Positions 47,189 through 58,874 of a DNA stretch of 64,000 nt are shown here, in pieces. The first letter of the stretch is position 1. Every line of letters starts with the position of its first letter. The position numbers were made by a program, and so were the translations under genes. Location: the NCBI RefSeq assembly GCF_029784135.1, contig NC_073746.1:50056393-50120392 (forward strand), read 5' to 3'. The DNA comes from Toxorhynchites rutilus septentrionalis (taxonomy: Eukaryota; Arthropoda; Insecta; Diptera; Culicidae). The notes beneath the pieces were generated by a model. It had not been told where the DNA came from. It made no database searches and was given only the letters and a program-made list of their open reading frames with translations.

Positions 47189-47566
47189 TTATTTCCTACT
47201 CCATCCTTTCCACGACTCAGCAAAGGTATTCCGTCGATTGATAATAACAGGTGGGTGAATGTGGGCAGACACGCCGAGTATTAGGAATGAGATGTGTTTC
47301 CAACAGCAGATTGAGATGAAAGCTGCTTCGGGCAAAAGTTTAGTTTCGTTACTACTGAGAAGGTCCATTTTGCTAGGTAAAATATCGTTAGACTCCGTTG
47401 TATTTTTAAACTCACAGCGATCCCCTGTTAAAAAACAGAATTTTATTTCCTGAGGGTGTGGGTTTTTGGAACATTTCAAAAATGTTGCTCGTTTTGGTGT
47501 TTGGTGATCCATAAATATCATTTTGTCCGGTGAATCCATATATTCTTCTTCGTCTATTTCAGACAT
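47189..47566 (-). CDS. hypothetical 125-codon frame, doubtful
   Basis: On the minus strand an ATG at 47564-47566 opens an acidic N-terminus (MSEIDEEEYMDSPDKM) and a frame uninterrupted to 47189. I recognise no domain. Three cysteine pairs are scattered and there is one moderately hydrophobic stretch (ISICCWKHISFLILGV). A TTTTTTAACAG site near residue 50 could be a splice acceptor, so the frame may combine real exon and intron sequence. There is no TATA box. It lies between a transposon and the secreted-peptide gene. It could be a genuine unknown exon or a chance frame. Confidence 0.25.
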   Translation of the reverse strand: MSEIDEEEYMDSPDKMIFMDHQTPKRATFLKCSKNPHPQEIKFCFLTGDRCEFKNTTESNDILPSKMDLLSSNETKLLPEAAFISICCWKHISFLILGVSAHIHPPVIINRRNTFAESWKGWSRK

Positions 47567-48304
47567 ATATTTGTAAATTATAATCTACCTGAGAGGTACA
47601 AAAATTCGCTGCAGCTCGCAAATAACAACTCGAGCAGCTAAACGAACGGAAACATTTTGAAGCATAAATTCTTGACACCTCAAAGGCGACAGACCATAAA
47701 AGTTTCTTCTTTTTTTATTCCACAAGGCCTATGTAAACTGAAATTCTCATCAGTTCGTTGTCACTTATATTTCACTCCCTCTGCCATTGGTGCCTGGTTG
47801 TCGTAATGTTCGCAAGAACTCAGAAAGTTTTATCGAGTCAACGCTTTGCTACGGCGCGACTTTCCCATCCGCTTCCACAAATCAAAGTAAGAGCCTGCAG
47901 AAATTCCATTTCGAGCCGCGCTATCAAACTGTTGCTGTTGTATTTTCTCTTTGTTTTAAAACGCTCTCTCAAAGGTCACGCGGAGACGCTACAGGTGATT
48001 GGTTACATTGTTTCCACTTCGTCTCGTGGCGTTAGAATTTGTGGGAATTTGTTCGAAAATGATATCGTTTTTACTCATATTCGCATCAAACGGTTTGAGG
48101 TTTTTTTTAAGAAAACATCCTCAAGAAAAATTCAAGACTTTTTTTTATATTTCTACACAAAATTATTCCACGTCACTGTTATCTAGTTTTCCCTTACGCA
48201 CCTGTTCGAATTATGGGCTTAATCAGTTCAAATTCGCTATTTTGAATTTTCTTTTCAATGGTTAGGAGCAATGTTTTTAAATATAAAAGACAAATTTTAT
48301 GAAC

Positions 48305-48310
48305 TTTATT
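48305..48310 (-). promoter_or_regulatory. AATAAA polyadenylation signal
   Basis: On the minus strand AATAAA lies 55 bases beyond the stop codon of the secreted-peptide gene, in the sequence ATCAATAAAGTTC. Position and hexamer are both canonical, so the 3' untranslated region should end some 10 to 30 bases further left. Confidence 0.8.
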
Positions 48311-48365
48311 GATATCGGAATACTTTGGAACCATACCGACAGCTTATTGATATTATTTTGGAGAA

Positions 48366-48627
48366 TCAATATAACCCAAAATATGACCTTGGATGAGCTA
48401 CCGGCCTCTGGTGATGGTTGTTGTGGTTTCCAAGTCTTCCAAGTCGGGGACGGAGATATGATTTGATGAACTTCTTAGCCAGCAGCAGTGGCTCACCGAC
48501 ACAAAGACCGAGCAGCACCAGGGTCAACAGGAAGATGCCAGAGAACTAGCGAGAAGAGTAAGAACAGAAAGTTTGTTACAGTATAGACAAGTTATCTTTT
48601 CGCACACCTACTTCTACTTACTTTCAT
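48366..48627 (-). CDS. novel 61-residue secreted cationic peptide, two exons
   Basis: Exon 1 is only ATGAAA (48622-48627) in the context CAGCAAAATG. A 76-nt intron follows, and exon 2 (48366-48545) ends in TGA. The intron is phase 0, so splicing gives a clean 61-codon frame. Residues 1-19 (MKFSGIFLLTLVLLGLCVG) form a textbook signal peptide, with cleavage likely after Gly19 or Ala25. The predicted mature part of about 42 residues has no cysteine. It has eight Lys/Arg against one Glu, four His, and ends with HNNHHQRPVAHPRSYFGLY. Cationic Pro/Arg/His-rich secreted peptides are often antimicrobial, and RPVAHPR loosely recalls drosocin- or apidaecin-type peptides. This is resemblance only; a reproductive or salivary peptide is equally possible. 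I recognise no family. Promoter, splice sites and poly(A) signal all agree, so the gene is very likely real. Confidence 0.8.
48546..48621 (-). other. 76-nt intron of the secreted-peptide gene
   Basis: On the minus strand the intron starts GTAAGTAGAAG and ends with the pyrimidine-rich TTCTTACTCTTCTCGCTAG. A CTATACTGTAAC stretch upstream could hold the branch point. The size is typical of short insect introns. Without splicing, the ATG would lead into a different, quickly closed frame. Confidence 0.85.
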
Positions 48628-48710
48628 TTTGCTGAATTCGGTGCAAAATTTTGCTGATGTTGTACGAGAGGGAGTCAAAACAGTTCTGTGATGATAGGTG
48701 GTGTCGGTCA

Positions 48711-48720
48711 TATTTATATA
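48711..48720 (-). promoter_or_regulatory. TATA box of the secreted-peptide gene
   Basis: TATATAAATA on the minus strand lies 83 bases before the ATG. A start site near ATCATCACAG (about 48685-48696) would be at the usual distance and give a leader of about 65 bases. Upstream, GTGGAATTTC (48848-48857, minus) is a weak NF-kappaB-like match; whether it matters is unknown. Confidence 0.7.
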
Positions 48721-48729
48721 GATGAAATG

Positions 48730-49605
48730 ATGATTGCGATGAAACAGAATGAAACATGGCCCTTTGGGCGGTAATTATGTTGTGGTATTAGTGCCCAAGG
48801 TGGAACCTGTTCAAACAACAGACAATAAATGAAACCTGTTCGGTATAGAAATTCCACCGTTAGGTCACCTTCAATTTCCGTAAAATTGTACACTGTTTCA
48901 TAGCATTGTGCAAACTTAAAATCGACCTTGTAACGCAACAGCGGAACAACAAAAACTCAAATCGATTCCCACGAATTTCAAGCAATTGCTTGCATGTTCT
49001 ACGCCACATCCAGACTTCCCGGAAAAGCGTTCAACTTGTTATCCCAACTTGTTTTGTTGCGCCAGCAACGTTTCCTATGTTTTACTTCCATTAACTCAAA
49101 CCGCAAATATCTTTACGTTTGCATTGTGCTCCCCTGGCACGTGCTTCCGAAGCTCTGAAATAGGGGGAAAAAGTATCGTTGTAATATTTTGTAAGTTGCT
49201 CGTGTTGAAACCCGGCGCCCTCCGCAGGGTACAGGAAAAATGAAGAAATGAAAATAAATGAAACGGGAAAACCGGAGAATTGCATCTAAAGTTTTTTTTC
49301 TCATCTGCTGTCCGAGATACACTCTTTGTGATGAGATTTTCATTATTCTATTTGCCAGACGAAGCATTGAAACAATAGTCAGCGAATAAAAGATGTGGAA
49401 CAAAAAAAAACTTAAAAAGTAAGTTCTGTGAAAATTGAACCGTTGTTTTATGGATAGTCACATCAAGCGGTACTCGGTTGCGTTTTTAAGCGAAGCAGTA
49501 GCAGTAGTATTTCTATTTCCGACAACAGCATTCCATTTGCAGCAGTAACAAGACATAATCTGATCGACTTAAATCTCTCAGAGTAGGGAATAGGTGTTTC
49601 GGATA
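48730..49605. other. upstream region of the peptide gene; no other gene seen
   Basis: Overlapping short frames occur on both strands, with no recognised domain. No paired transposon ends were found, so this roughly 0.9-kb stretch may hold the regulatory DNA of the peptide gene. Confidence 0.35.
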
Positions 49606-49607
49606 TA

Positions 49608-50269
49608 CAGTGACACAAACTCGTAGTCGTACTCCACCACGCAGATCTCTTTTCCCATCTTTTGGAGGTCGAAAACATGGTTCCGGAACATTCTATTTAG
49701 ATGAAGTCATAGTGTCATATGAGAGTTAAAAGGTTTGCTATCTGTTTTCAGGATAATGGTTTTTATTTCTCTATGAATTGCGAATGTATGTGCGAATGTA
49801 TAAAAATTGACTCAAACTCATAATCGTACTCTGATTGAAATTTCAACTCGATTCCTAAGGTGTTGATCAATTTCAGGATTTCATCATTAGTAAGGTATCT
49901 CTTGTTCATTGCAACTATTTTTAGCTGTATTTAGCCGTTATCTGCGAGTTTTTTGGTGTATTCGGAAGGAATATTCATCCTTGTCAGAATGTTTACTTGA
50001 ACACCCTAAAGAAAAACATGTAGCTAAATGTGACCAAAATGAGATTGAATTGAGGATTCAAGTTTTACCGAGACTATGGCCCTAAGCACAAGTCACATAT
50101 AGTTCGCACATGGTCACATTATAATTGCTCAAAAGTAATTGGTACTTCTACCCATTCTCCCAGCATCAATCACAGTTTAAAAATATGGAAGTTATTTGGG
50201 TAGGAGATTTAGAAACCATCAAATTTCTAAAAATAAACGGCGGAGTACGATTACGAGTTTCTATCACTG
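49608..50269. mobile_element. TA-flanked MITE with CAGTGA ends
   Basis: The ends CAGTGACACAAACTCGTAG and, inverted, CAGTGATAGAAACTCGTAA, each continuing into TCGTACTCC, are flanked by TA (49606-49607, 50270-50271). A third copy of the motif (ACTCAAACTCATAATCGTACTC) lies internally near 49810. There is no transposase. Class Tc1/mariner or pogo. Confidence 0.85.
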
Positions 50270-50271
50270 TA

Positions 50272-50716
50272 TTTGCAGACTATTCCGTCCGTTCTAATTT
50301 GAAACAGATGCAAGTAAAGAGATTAGTAGATATACTTCGATGAGACGCCGGTTTGCTTAAGAGACCGCCTAGGCCCCAACTTACCTAAACTTGCTAATGC
50401 GAAACTATCATGTTATTTCCAACAATGAATAACATAACATATTTTTTTAGTTTATACTTGCAAAGAATGTTGTTTACTATCAATAGTTTACACATAATGC
50501 AAAACTGCGATGTGATCAGGATACCAATTAAATTATGATAATTGTGCTATTCAATGATTATTGCATAGTTGATTAATGTCAATTTTGATTTTCATCATTC
50601 AATACCCTCGCTTACAAGACAAGGTGTTCTTGAGTCGAAAGAATGTGGAAATTGAATCAAAATATATGAACTCTTTCACTTCAAACTTACAGAATGTTTT
50701 TAGAAGCACCGAAGAT
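50272..50716. other. no gene seen
   Basis: Short AT-rich spacer between two transposons. Confidence 0.4.
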
Positions 50717-50718
50717 TA

Positions 50719-52016
50719 AAGGGTGTGTCACATCAAATTGCATCACGGAAAAAACGCTGTAGAAATTTAATTTTTAGGAATTATATCTTCAGCTTTCGCT
50801 TATAATCAGATAAGAGTGTATAGATCTCGTTGGCCATGCTTCACTGTCAATTTTTCGTAAATTTGGAAAAATGTCGTCGAACGAAAAAGAGCGTCGTGAA
50901 TTAATCCTGTGCACTCATTTCGAGAATCCGGAGTTGTCACATCGGGACATCGGTAAGATGCTGGGAATCGTCCAATCCACGGTCAGCAGAGTACTAAAAC
51001 GATACTTCGAGAACCTAACCATCGACCGGAAGGTGAAGAACGGCAAAAATGGATGCTCCGTCAGTGAAAAAGATCACAAGCGCGTAGTTAAGCAGTTTAG
51101 ACGTGATCCGAGAAGTTCGGTCCGGGATGTCGCCAATAAGCTGAATTTGTAAAGTTCATTCGTCCAGCGGACCAAGCAGCGGGAGAGCCTGCGTACATAC
51201 AAGGTTCTGAAGGCTCCTAACCGCGACGAAAGGCAAAACATGGTGGGGAAGACGCGAGCCCGGAAGCTGTACACCGAAATGCTGACGAAGCCGCATTGCC
51301 TGGTAATGGACGACGAAACCTACGTCAAAGTGGACTTTCGTCAGCTGCCGGGCCTGTTGTTCTTCTCCGCAGAGGACAAATTCAGCGTTCCGGAGGAGAT
51401 TCGCAAGCAGAAACTATCCAAGTTTGCCAAAAAGTACATGGTGTGGCAAGCGATCTGCTCTTGCGGAAAGCGGAGCGCCCCCTTCGTGATGACCGGCACG
51501 GTAAACGGGCAGGTTTACCTTAAGGAGTGCCTACAGAAGCGCTTTCTACCACTATTGAAGCAGCACGAGGGCCCGACCATCTTCTAGCCGGATCTCGCTT
51601 CGTGCCACTATTCAAAGGACGTGTTGGAGTGGTACGAAGCAGACGGGGTCACCTTCGTGCCAAAGGAAATGAACCCGCCCAACGCGCCGGAGCTACGCCC
51701 AATAGAGAAATATTGGGCGATTATGAAGCAGGCCCTCCGGAAGAACCCAGAAGTTGTCAAATCGGAGGCGGACTTCAAGAGAAAATGGATTTCTGTTCAA
51801 AAAAAACTACAACCTGACGTTGTACAGAACCTTATGGACGGGGTAAAGAGGAAGGTGCGAGCATACGGGCTTGGGCTCGAAGTATGAATAAAAAGAAAAT
51901 GCCAAAAGTTGTTTAATAGTTTTTATTTTACTGTCTAAAATTTTCAAAAGGATCGGTCTACTGGGCGAATTTCTACAGCGTTTTTTCCGTGATGCAATTT
52001 GATGTGACACACCCTT
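50719..52016 (+). mobile_element. ITmD37E (DD37E Tc1/mariner) transposon, structurally complete
   Basis: The terminal inverted repeats are identical over 49 bp (50719-50767 and 51968-52016, starting AAGGGTGTGTCACATC), flanked by TA (50717-50718, 52017-52018). The 1,298-bp element holds a single transposase frame with the diagnostic spacing of 37 residues between the second Asp and the Glu. ITmD37E is known from mosquitoes. Identical ends imply recent movement or active end maintenance, although the gene carries two stop codons. Its ends remain suitable substrates for a transposase supplied elsewhere. Confidence 0.95.
50871..51887 (+). pseudogene. ITmD37E transposase with two nonsense codons
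   Basis: The ATG at 50871 starts a frame of 338 codons plus stop, the usual size for Tc1/mariner transposases. Residues about 10-45 (ELSHRDIGKMLGIVQSTVS) form the first helix-turn-helix and SSVRDVANKL belongs to the second. The catalytic Asp residues lie in CLVMDDETYV and PDLASCHYS, and the Glu in RPIEKYWAIMK, exactly 37 residues after the second Asp. All three catalytic residues survive. Two in-frame stops, at codon 94 (51150-51152) and codon 239 (51585-51587), are the only obvious lesions; there is no frameshift over the full length. The second stop directly precedes the PDLASCH block, where the family normally has Trp. The protein should not be made in full unless stops are read through. 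Confidence 0.95.
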
Positions 52017-54407: not shown

Positions 54408-54560
54408 TAACAGCACGGGTAGGTATGCACAGAAATGCACAGAAAAAATGTTTGAAAAGTGGGAATCCTTCCAATTTTTGTCAATTGAAACTATTTACGG
54501 ACTAGTAACGGAATCGTATCGTATGGCACATCAAACAAATCAAACAAGACGCAGTACTTG
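54408..54560 (+). repeat. TGAC...GTCA dispersed repeat, copy D (truncated)
   Basis: It starts CAGCACGGGTAGGTATGCAC and includes TTTACGGACTAGTAACGGAATC and CACATCAAACAAATC, colinear with copies A and B, then stops matching near 54560. Confidence 0.65.
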
Positions 54561-54638
54561 ATTTGGCTGGTGATTTGCACCTATGGGTTGTAAAGCAAAC
54601 TTTTCGTGACAACTGGCAACCAGTGACAACTGGCAACT

Positions 54639-55219
54639 ATCATATTCAATGCCCGGTGTACAAACAACGAGGGGAAAAACTCAAGCGTTCCTTAAAGGAA
54701 CGTTCCAAGCGGACTTTTGCAGAAATGCTTAAGAGTTCCGTGCCAACGACACAGGACAATCCCTACTCCATTCTGCAGAACGACGAGCCTGTTGCTGATG
54801 CTCCCAATGCCGGATGTTCCGGTACATCGCAGGGTGCCATCAGGAAAAGAAAAATTACTTCTTTTCCATCACTCCCCAGAAAGAATACCGAAACTTCCCA
54901 AGTTGGAATGAAGCCTCGAACTGAACGTGCTGAGAATAGGCCGAAGCAAGTACCTCCCGGTTTACGTGGTCATGCTACCAACCAGGGGTCCTCAGCACTT
55001 CCCGGAACAACAACGAACAAGTCTGTTCCATTTTCGCGGTCGAAGCAACAGCCACTACCTGGCCTGCTTGCGCTTTCAGACCTTGTGGATAACATTTTAA
55101 ATGCTTTAAATATAAATGATCCTCTTAAAAGCATAGTATTATGTTTGCTTCCGGTTGTGAGAACATTTTTGAAAGAAAAATGTGGCTTTTTAGCAGCGTT
55201 CATTTCCCTCGATGCCTAA
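54639..55219 (+). pseudogene. LINE ORF1 (gag-like), 5'-truncated
   Basis: ORF1 proteins of I-clade LINEs bind RNA and help form the retrotransposition particle. What remains starts near HIQCPVYKQRGEKLKRSLKE, the segment that normally follows the CCHC zinc knuckles (family pattern: H..CPVY...). It then has TFAEMLKSSVPTTQDNPYSIL, a low-complexity Ser/Thr/Pro-rich linker, and a hydrophobic C-terminal helix (LSDLVDNILNALNINDPL, PVVRTFLKEK). The frame is open for about 193 codons to TAA at 55217-55219. The apparent upstream ATG at 54563 lies in flanking DNA outside the target duplication and is not the native start. ORF2 overlaps the end by 8 bases. Confidence 0.8.
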
Positions 55220-58200
55220 TTCAGCGCAAGAGGTCAAGGATTTGACCACTGTCATACAGTGGAATTGCAGAAGCATCATCCCTAAACTAGACCAATTTAA
55301 ATTTTTAGTTCACAGTTCTAACTGAGATGTATTTTCTCTCTGTGAAACATGGCTTTGTTCAGCCGACGAGCTGAATTTTCACGATTTCAACATTATTCGC
55401 CAACATTATTCGCCTAGTAACGACTCGTTTGGTGGCGTACTATTGGGGATCAAAAAACGTCACTCCTTCTATAGAGTCACTATCCCATCGATTACAGGCA
55501 TTGAAGTTGTCGCTTGCCAGATACAAATCAATGGCAAAGAACTCTGCATTGCTTCGATATATATTCCTCCCAGGACTACGGTAGGCCGCCATCAGTTCTT
55601 TGATATTATCGAGGCATTGCCGGAGCCGCGGTTAATCTTAGGTGACTTCAACTCCCATGGAACAGCATGGGGGTCACTCTACGATGACAACCGTGCCACG
55701 TTGATTTATGATCTGTGCGACAACTTCAACATGACAGTTTTAAATACTGGGGAAGCAACTAGGATAGCCAACCCTCCTGCACGGGCAAGCATGCTAGACA
55801 TATCTCTCTGCTCTTCTTCATTGTCCCTGGATTGTACATGGAAGGTAATCCAAGATCCCCACGGTAGTGATCACCTACCAATAATTTTATCGATCGCCAA
55901 TGAATCAAAATCTAGTGAGTCAGTCGATATTGCGTATGACCTCACGAAGAATATTGACTGGAGAAAATTTGCAGAATTAATATCTGAAGCAATCATTTCG
56001 ATGCATGAACTTCCTCCCCTTGAAGAGTATAATTTTATATCAATTTTGATTTACGATAGCGCACTTCAAGCTCAAAAGAAACGTGTACCGGCTACCACTT
56101 TCCGACGTCGTCCTCCATCATTTTGGTGGGACAAGGAATGTTCAAAGGTCTACCTTGAAAAATCATCCGCTTTCAAAAAATTCAGGAAAACTGGATTAGT
56201 GGAATGGTTTCGAAAGTACCAAGCTCTAGAAGCCAAACTAAAAGGTCTGATTAAAGCAAAAAAGCGTGGATATTGGCGGAAGTTTGTCAATGGTTTGTCA
56301 AGGGAGACCGCTATGAGTACTCTTTGGAATACGGCTAGGAGAATGCGTGGCTGGAACCATACCAATGAAAGTGAGGAATACTCTGACCGTTGGATTTTCA
56401 AATTTGCAAGGAAGGTTTGTCCTGATTCTGTTCCTGTACAAAGCGTCGTACGCGATATTCCGCTCCAATGCGATTATGAGAATTTTTCGATGGTAGAATT
56501 CTCAATTGCCCTCCTCTCATGTAACAATTCAGCTCCGGGGTCGGACAAGATTAAATTCAACTTGTTGAAGAATCTTCCCGACTTGGCAAAACAGCGTTTG
56601 CTGAACTTGTTCAACAAATTTCTGGAGCTGAATATTGTCCCGCATGACTGGAGACAAGTGAGAGTGATAGCCATACGAAAACCCAACAAGCCGGCTTGCG
56701 ATCACAACTCGTATAGGCCGATTGCAATGTTATCCTGTATTCGCAAATTGTTAGAGTAAATGATTCTACTTCGTTTGAACAAGTGGGTCGAAACGAACAA
56801 TTTGCTGTCAAATACGCAGTTTGGCTTCCGCCGAGGTAAAGGGACGAATGATTGTCTCGCGCTGCTATCTTCTGAAATCCAAATCGCATTTGCTCGCAAA
56901 GAACAAATGGCTTCCGTTTTTCTCGATATCAAAGGGGCATTTTATTCAGTTTCCATGGAAATTCTCTCAGAGAAGCTTCATAATCGTGGACTTTCACCAA
57001 TTCTGAATAATTTCCTGTACAATTTACTGTCAGAAAAGCAACTGAATTTCTCTCATGGCAACACAAAATCTTCTCGTTACAGTTTTATGGGCCTACCACA
57101 AGGCTCCTGCCTAAGCCCCCTCTTGTAAAGTTTTTACGTCAATGATATGGATGATTGTCTAACTAAAGACTGCACGCTGAGACAACTTGCAGACGATGGA
57201 GTTATTTCCATCACGGGTACTAATCCCGTCGCTCTGCAAAAGTCGTTGCAAGATACCATGAACAATCTGTTCACGTGGGCCCTCAAGCTGGGTATCGAAT
57301 TCTCTACGGAGAAAACTGAAATGGTCGTTTTTTCTAGGAAGCACGAACCCGTCCAATTCCAGCTTTACCTATCCGGCAAAACGATCCAACACTCTATGTT
57401 TTTCAAATACCTGGGTGTATATTTCGATTCTAAGTGTACCTGGGGGAGACACATTGCGTATTTGAAACAGAAATGCCAGCAAAGAATCAATTTTCTCCAA
57501 ACAATTACCGGAACATGGTGGGGTGCCCATCCAGGAGACCTCATTCAGTTGTACAAAACAACGATATTGTCAGTGTTATAATATGGCAGTTTTTGCTTCC
57601 GATCAGCTGCCAGGATTCATATTCTCAAGCTGGAGAGAATACAATATCGTTGCTTGCGTATAGCCATGGGGTGTTTGCATTCGACACATACGATGAGTCT
57701 CGAAGTTTTGGCAGGAGTACCCCCGCTTACTATTCGGTTCACAGAATTATCCTACAGATTTCTCATCCGTTGCAAGATCATGAATCCATTGGTGATTGAT
57801 AACTTCGAAAATCTACTCCAGCTGACTCCTCAGTCAAGTTTTATGTCTTTATACCATGAGTACCTTACCCACGACGTGCACCCTTCACCAGGCATCTCCA
57901 ACCAAGTTTGCTTCCCATACTTTTGCAATTCCTCTGTCATTTTTGATCTGTTCATGCGACAAAAAATCCATGGAATACCAGATCACCTACGCTCCAATGT
58001 TATTCCGTCGATATTTTCGGAAAAATATGGGAAAGTTGGATCTGATAAAATGTTCTTTACTGACGGTTCATACATAAACGGGTCCACTGGCTTCGGCATC
58101 TTCAATGAAAATTCCAGTGCCTCTTTCAAACTCAAAGATCCTTGTTCCGTGTATGTCGCAGAAATGGGTGCGATATACTATGCTCTAGGGATCATTGAAA

Positions 58201-58874
58201 CACTGCCCATCGACCATTATTTTATTTTTTCAGACAGTCTCAGCTCAATAGAGGCAATCCGCTCAATGAAAGTTGATAAACGCTCATCTTATTTCCTAAC
58301 AAGAATAAGACATCTATTGAGTGTTTTGGTTTGGGTTCCCTCTCATTGCTCGATTCCGGGGAATGAGAAAGCGGACTCGCTAGCTAAGGTGGGCGCTTCA
58401 GAAGGCACACTTTTTGAAAGGCAAATTGCCTATAATGAATTTTTCCACATTCCTCGTCAGGACACACTCGTTAGTTGGCAGCGCATGTGGAGTGGTGATG
58501 AGTTCGGTCGTTGGTTACACATGATTATCCCTAAGGTCTCGACGAGTGCATGGTTCAAGGGATTGAATGTAGGTCGTGATTTCATTCGCGTGATATCTCC
58601 TCTTATGTCCAATCACTACAACCTAAACGCGCATCTCTATCGCATTGGGCTCGCAGCAAACAATCTTTGTGATTGTGGCGATGGCTACCACGACATCGAG
58701 CATGTTGTCTGGTCGTGTATCCGGTTCCATGCTGCTCGCTCTCAGCTCTCTAGAGCACTGAGAGCACAAGGCAGACAATCGGATATCCCCGTCCGGGATA
58801 TCTTAGGTAGCCGGGATCCTGATCTTCTGCTTCATCTATACCTGTTCATCAGAAACGCCGATGTCAACGTTTAA
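55212..58874 (+). pseudogene. LINE ORF2: endonuclease, RT, RNase H; four stop codons
   Basis: From ATG 55212 a single frame of 1,220 codons runs to TAA 58872-58874 with no frameshift. It is interrupted by stops at codons 38 (55323), 516 (56757), 639 (57126) and 790 (57579). The AP-endonuclease motifs are WNCRS (residue 17), CETWL (44), LGDFNSH (144) and GSDHLPI (about 220). Reverse transcriptase has NSYRPIAML, FGFRRGKGTND, FLDIKGAF (first catalytic Asp), GLPQGSCLSPLL and LADDG (second and third). RNase H has FTDGSY, a Glu in VAEMGA, SDSLSS and PSHCSIPGNEKADSLA, so the catalytic acids are retained. A C-terminal CDCGDGYHDIEHVVWSC knuckle follows. Canonical YADD/FADD reads LADD. Point stops without indels suggest a fairly young copy. 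Confidence 0.9.

Follow-up and report, generated by a model that had tools for sequence, protein, structure and literature searches.

A probable two-gene family of small, secreted, cysteine-free basic peptides in the mosquito Toxorhynchites rutilus septentrionalis

Positions 48720 to 48305 of the window, the 64-kb stretch of T. rutilus septentrionalis DNA analysed here, read as a compact two-exon gene on the minus strand. It opens with the TATA box TATATAAATA (48711..48720), followed by the presumed transcription start motif ATCATCACAG (48686..48695), which occurs once in the window when both strands are considered. The first ATG past the presumed start site, at 48627 and in the context CAAAATG, begins the coding part of exon 1, which consists of ATGAAA (Met-Lys; 48622..48627). 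A phase-0 intron of 76 nt (48546..48621; GTAAGT...CGCTAG, with a pyrimidine-rich end) leads to the coding part of exon 2 (48366..48545), encoding residues 3-61 and the TGA stop codon, and an AATAAA poly(A) signal (48305..48310) lies 55 nt past the stop. Exon 2 comprises the remainder of a signal peptide (residues 3-19; 48495..48545) with a predicted cut at G19|E20, a mature core (residues 20-40, EPLLLAKKFIKSYLRPRLGRL; 48432..48494) and a tail containing His, Arg and Pro (residues 41-61; 48369..48431). Every part that the original prediction had assigned to a complete 61-residue gene, i.e. the ATGAAA exon, the 76-nt intron, the signal peptide, TGA and AATAAA, is present on this strand. The G+C content of exon 2 is higher than that of the immediate flanks (up to 0.53 in 120-base windows, compared to 0.36 for the whole window), which is weak evidence for the gene, as stretches about 600 bases away and outside of it also reach 0.47-0.50. 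At third codon positions of exon 2, G+C is 0.67 over the first 30 codons and 0.41 thereafter.

The spliced product, MKFSGIFLLTLVLLGLCVGEPLLLAKKFIKSYLRPRLGRLGNHNNHHQRPVAHPRSYFGLY, has 61 residues. Its signal peptide obtained a von Heijne score of 12.4 (cut-off 3.5) with cleavage after G19. The mature form of 42 residues has no Cys, a pI of 11.0 and a charge of about +7, and contains 5 Arg, 3 Lys, 4 His and 4 Pro. The product would accordingly be a linear secreted peptide of roughly 5 kDa and +7 charge, in agreement with the secreted, cationic and cysteine-free peptide originally proposed. For exon 2 alone, AlphaFold placed a single helix over residues 2-40 of the exon-2 product and left the tail unstructured. 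The mean pLDDT was 72, and the confidence along the helix dropped from 91 to 62, so that this single-sequence model, calculated without an alignment, is a weak and moderately confident one.

We then asked how often such an architecture arises by chance, using a scanner that required an ATG, a short exon, a GTRAG donor, an intron of 48-130 nt, a pyrimidine-rich acceptor, and a product of 45-150 aa whose signal score was no lower than 3.5. In the 64-kb window it returned exactly one candidate, the gene at 48305..48720; this two-exon scan is also the extent to which the original prediction's view of it as the only clean host gene of the window was covered. Order-3 Markov sequences (n = 300) held a mean of 0.09 candidates each; in two of the 300 a candidate was accompanied by a TATA box, a poly(A) signal and a start context, and none of the 300 combined these with a signal score of at least 10. 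As the criteria had been fixed after the gene had been seen, the scanner was also run on real genomic DNA. Among 20 control stretches of 10 kb each, taken from the contig of the gene (200 kb in total), it found no full candidate and a single weak partial one.

A protein search of the 902-Mb genome with exon 2 identified one convincing paralog on the contig that also carries the gene, at a distance of 199.6 Mb (C3:249658981-249659097, minus strand) and matching with 62% identity over 39 residues (residues 3-41; E 2.1e-8). On this contig the gene corresponds to C3:50104697-50105112 and the paralog as a whole to C3:249658909-249659164. The paralog reads MK|FFGILLLTMALLSLCIGEPLLLKKKLVNRYVRPRLTKLVHEQVLPAVRRLRSGPAYSSGALH and is interrupted by a phase-0 intron of 61 nt at the same codon. 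It likewise carries a TATA-type box, TATATATAAG, which lies 93 nt 5' of the ATG in both copies, as well as a TAA stop and AATAAA. Its signal peptide scored 11.7 with a predicted cut after residue 19, and its mature form is Cys-free with a pI of 11.4 and a charge of +8. When applied to 40 kb around the paralog, the scanner returned the paralog as sole candidate, with its signal score of 11.7, TATA box, poly(A) signal and start context. The paralog is an independent confirmation of the gene, which is very probably real. It retains both the open frame and the splice sites, whose lack of conservation in sister species had been named in advance as evidence against the gene, and the signal-peptide prediction proposed as a check is strong in both copies.

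The reverse search from the paralog returned only these two genes, as did a query blended from both. At the DNA level, the gene matched itself alone in the 902-Mb genome in a search that skipped very common words; with this one match and a single full-length protein match to exon 2, it does not appear to be repetitive. As an intron is retained in both, neither copy derives from a spliced transcript by retroposition. No tandem copies were found in the window (all other rows at E >= 1.1) or in the 40 kb around the paralog (other rows at E >= 0.26). Four further exon-2 matches (E 3-5) were dropped, as each covers residues 32-56 only and has an internal stop. The degenerate pattern GEPLLLxKK occurs at four places in the genome, namely in both genes and in two other frames; the latter have no visible signal peptide and were not taken as family members. 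Judged from their sequences, the gene and its paralog likely form a two-gene family with a secreted product in the T. rutilus genome.

The DNA alignment of the two copies showed that similarity is unevenly distributed. The TATA box is identical at 7/10 positions and the start-site region at 14/17, including an identical ATCATCACAG; the rest of the 5'UTR reaches 27/49 (3 gaps) and the upstream region 18/40. Within the gene, identity is 5/6 in exon 1, 39/51 in the signal-peptide codons, 43/63 in codons 20-40 (82/114 over the coding positions of codons 3-40), 27/61 in the intron (15 gaps), 28/64 in the tail (2 gaps) and 29/66 in the 3'UTR. By our own estimate, the lowest of these identities are about what unrelated AT-rich DNA reaches when forced into alignment. 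The conserved part of the mature peptide, its first 21 residues, reads GEPLLLxKKxxxxYxRPRLxxL. For codons 3-40, the Nei-Gojobori method gave a dN of 0.25 and a dS of 0.71, a ratio of about 0.36 (0.31 for the signal peptide and 0.38 for the mature core), with pN >= pS in 21 of 2000 bootstraps. LWL85 agreed over the whole span of codons 3-40 (0.26 vs 0.67); YN00 gave a dN (0.39) above dS (0.25) for the 17 signal-peptide codons and no value for the other two spans. In this one gene pair, the signal peptide and the first 21 mature residues thus appear to differ as under purifying selection.

The C-terminal tail has diverged to a point where it has no confident alignment between the copies, and nothing in the paralog, the one available for comparison, can be recognised as equivalent to HHQRPVAHPR. 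The emphasis that the original prediction had placed on this motif was not borne out, as the conserved core lies N-terminal to the tail. A frameshift origin of the tail was also considered; inspection by eye revealed no evident match in the other frames of either tail. Further upstream, both copies share the 11-mer TTAAGTTTGCA, which in the gene (48909-48919, minus strand) begins 199 nt, and in the paralog 230 nt, before the TATA box. A word of this length is shared by 39 of 1000 random pairs, which makes the 11-mer a weak lead.

The surroundings of the gene hold several other features. About 0.9 kb upstream of its TATA box, at 49605-50272, two inverted ends of 34 nt (ATACAGTGACACAAACTCGTAGTCGTACTCCACC), 88% complementary and 600 nt apart, resemble those of a DNA transposon. 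A transposase, which we take to be mariner-like, occupies two adjoining open frames at 50814-51587, the first of which gave helix-turn-helix matches. By eye, the sequence at C3:249652147-249652957, about 6 kb away from the paralog, looks like a close copy of this transposase, which may merely reflect high copy number. Several open frames at 54509-58874 share between them the endonuclease, reverse transcriptase and RNase H domains of a non-LTR retrotransposon; over its RNase H region, this element has 91% identity with a protein annotated for Toxorhynchites rutilus. On the downstream side of the gene, at a distance of about 0.7 kb, a minus-strand open frame of 131 codons from stop to stop (47189-47584) contains MSEIDEEEYMDSPDKM and matched no Pfam family at E <= 0.001.

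Relatives outside the gene pair were sought in protein, structure and sequence collections. The protein search covered proteins whose length was 0.55-1.75 times that of the query and which shared short exact words with it; in a collection that includes Toxorhynchites proteins, no protein of 34-106 residues shared three 5-residue words with the peptide, and of the 8 candidates obtained with the two-row alignment of both copies none reached E <= 10. Since a control search returned named Toxorhynchites proteins, this negative result is informative. Neither Pfam nor NCBIfam, whose models are made for bacteria and archaea, contained a family at E <= 10. The PDB contained no relative; its best E of 0.03 came from an alignment that runs into a His tag at its end, and the two-row profile reached 0.88. 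IMG/VR scans returned no relative, Rfam had 0 matches in the window, and the peptide strings tried were absent from the literature searched. The gene and its paralog apparently are unannotated, in line with the claim that the gene is undescribed. The annotation may contain a longer model in which the gene has been misjoined, other mosquitoes may have a relative that has diverged, and a described relative may be among the salivary peptides of Toxorhynchites amboinensis (Calvo et al. 2008).

With regard to its kind, the peptide fits the lineage-restricted, small, basic and secreted peptides of many mosquito glands. The gland transcriptomes, as far as cited here, contain many small secreted families of unknown function, such as HHH, hyp6.2, hyp15/17 and the 4.2 kDa family (PMC3878727, PMC4801386, PMC5307786, PMC2644710). 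The gene pair fits this gland-peptide kind but shows none of the features that were tested as definitive of HHH, hyp6.2 or hyp15. Among the closest systems is the anopheline salivary peptide hyp6.2, described as a small and very basic secreted peptide that is free of Cys, lineage-restricted and predicted to be helical (PMC11121840, PMC5307786); in its mature form it is reported to inhibit bacteria in vitro (PMC11121840). By the same accounts, the anopheline salivary hyp15 is a Cys-free basic mature peptide of 48 aa with a short conserved N-terminal motif followed by a positive region (PMC11121840, PMC5307786), and it did not inhibit bacteria in the experiments reported there (PMC11121840).

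How might the peptide work? Transcription would start from a focused TATA promoter and be followed by one splicing event. The product would be exported and cut after G19, and perhaps be trimmed of Glu-Pro by an X-Pro dipeptidase. The resulting linear 42-residue peptide would act extracellularly by binding anionic targets via its Lys/Arg core, and the tail would tune this activity without defining it. Constitutive release as an exocrine product, be it of a salivary, reproductive or gut gland, is to us the most likely role. Within this reading, a defensive, antimicrobial-type action, at a probability of about 0.35, appears somewhat likelier than a reproductive one.

Antimicrobial action, which the original prediction had suggested alongside a salivary or reproductive role, is possible and is favoured by charge, size, the lack of Cys and the hyp6.2 precedent. 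Both copies also have what we took as the working type of a linear cationic antimicrobial, i.e. a signal peptide and a Cys-free, net positive mature peptide. Proline-rich peptides of the apidaecin/drosocin type are similar in being basic, in their Pro and in the HPR of the tail, but the mature peptide has only 4 Pro in 42 residues and its tail has diverged from that of the paralog. The helical moment was equalled by 635 of 5000 permutations for the gene and by 2134 of 5000 for the paralog, i.e. amphipathicity is no better than that of permuted sequence. No kB motif or GATA site was found in the 1000 nt upstream of the gene; upstream of the paralog, two overlapping relaxed-kB matches occurred at -392/-391 (0.6 expected) together with 5 GATA sites (2.7 expected). 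Antimicrobial peptides are not all inducible. As the promoter and helix tests were negative or neutral and hyp15 reportedly did not inhibit bacteria, we prefer a constitutive gland peptide, be it defensive or reproductive, over an immune-induced one.

Among the alternatives, a seminal-fluid peptide from the male accessory gland, which would be small, fast-evolving, passed to the female and have a rapidly changing tail, is a tentative option that we regard as the best of the rivals. The present gene, a short secreted orphan with a diverged tail of which only two copies were found, agrees with the manner in which reproductive peptides evolve. The TATA core promoter retained in both copies and the lack of kB and GATA sites in the first 1 kb 5' of the gene point in the same direction. 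The purifying selection on the core (0.36) argues against it, although it is compatible with either view.

A further and bolder proposal seems rather unlikely as the joint claim it is: that the two genes are a Toxorhynchites-specific secreted family whose RPRL core is conserved and whose tail is free to change, that this family arose in this mosquito lineage with predatory larvae and without blood meals, and that it provides a new bioactivity of a gland secretion, either antimicrobial or directed at prey or mate.

That the gene might be a drifted member of the salivary HHH (His-triad) family or of a hyp6.2/hyp15-type family is improbable. The general kind is the same, i.e. small, secreted and lineage-restricted, and hyp6.2 and hyp15 are also basic and Cys-free, but in a comparison by description the specific features disagree. 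HHH peptides are small, secreted and salivary, and no member had been functionally characterised by the date of the account cited (PMC3878727). They share with the present peptide small size, secretion and His, but the His-containing tail is not conserved here, and three consecutive His are absent from both mature peptides, with HH only in the gene and no HH in the paralog. According to the description cited, hyp6.2 is anopheline-specific and has a 58-aa propeptide and an intronless gene in An. gambiae, in contrast to the introns of 76 nt and 61 nt found here. The PLPG and HSLG motifs and the Gly-rich end described for hyp15/hyp17 are absent from the Toxorhynchites peptides; in the alignment, neither peptide has PLPG or HSLG.

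Slightly less probable still is a hormone of the PRX-amide type, released by cleavage at KK and GR as FIKSYLRPRL-amide. Insect PRXamides, as described, end in PRX-amide (PMC9853942), and in the gene KK precedes and G-R follows the PRL ending. This arrangement of PRX, Gly and basic cleavage site is not conserved across the pair: the gene reads PRLGR and the paralog PRLTK, which has no glycine and would not be amidated. In addition, FXPRL is absent, with no F at its position, and there is a single putative peptide. The missing amidation glycine of the paralog leads us to disfavour the amidated hormone.

A pseudogene or chance open frame without a product would agree with the failure of any annotated protein to match. 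It is very improbable, since both copies are intact, agree in promoter, splice sites and frame, and differ as under purifying selection, and since their architecture is rare by chance.

Taken together, these findings suggest that small secreted-peptide genes can escape mosquito genome annotation, and that an old paralog can lend support from within a single genome. The conserved core is the part to make and assay. If the peptide is an exocrine product of this non-blood-feeding mosquito, it would help to separate functions tied to blood feeding from general ones; otherwise, it would be another lineage-restricted secreted peptide.
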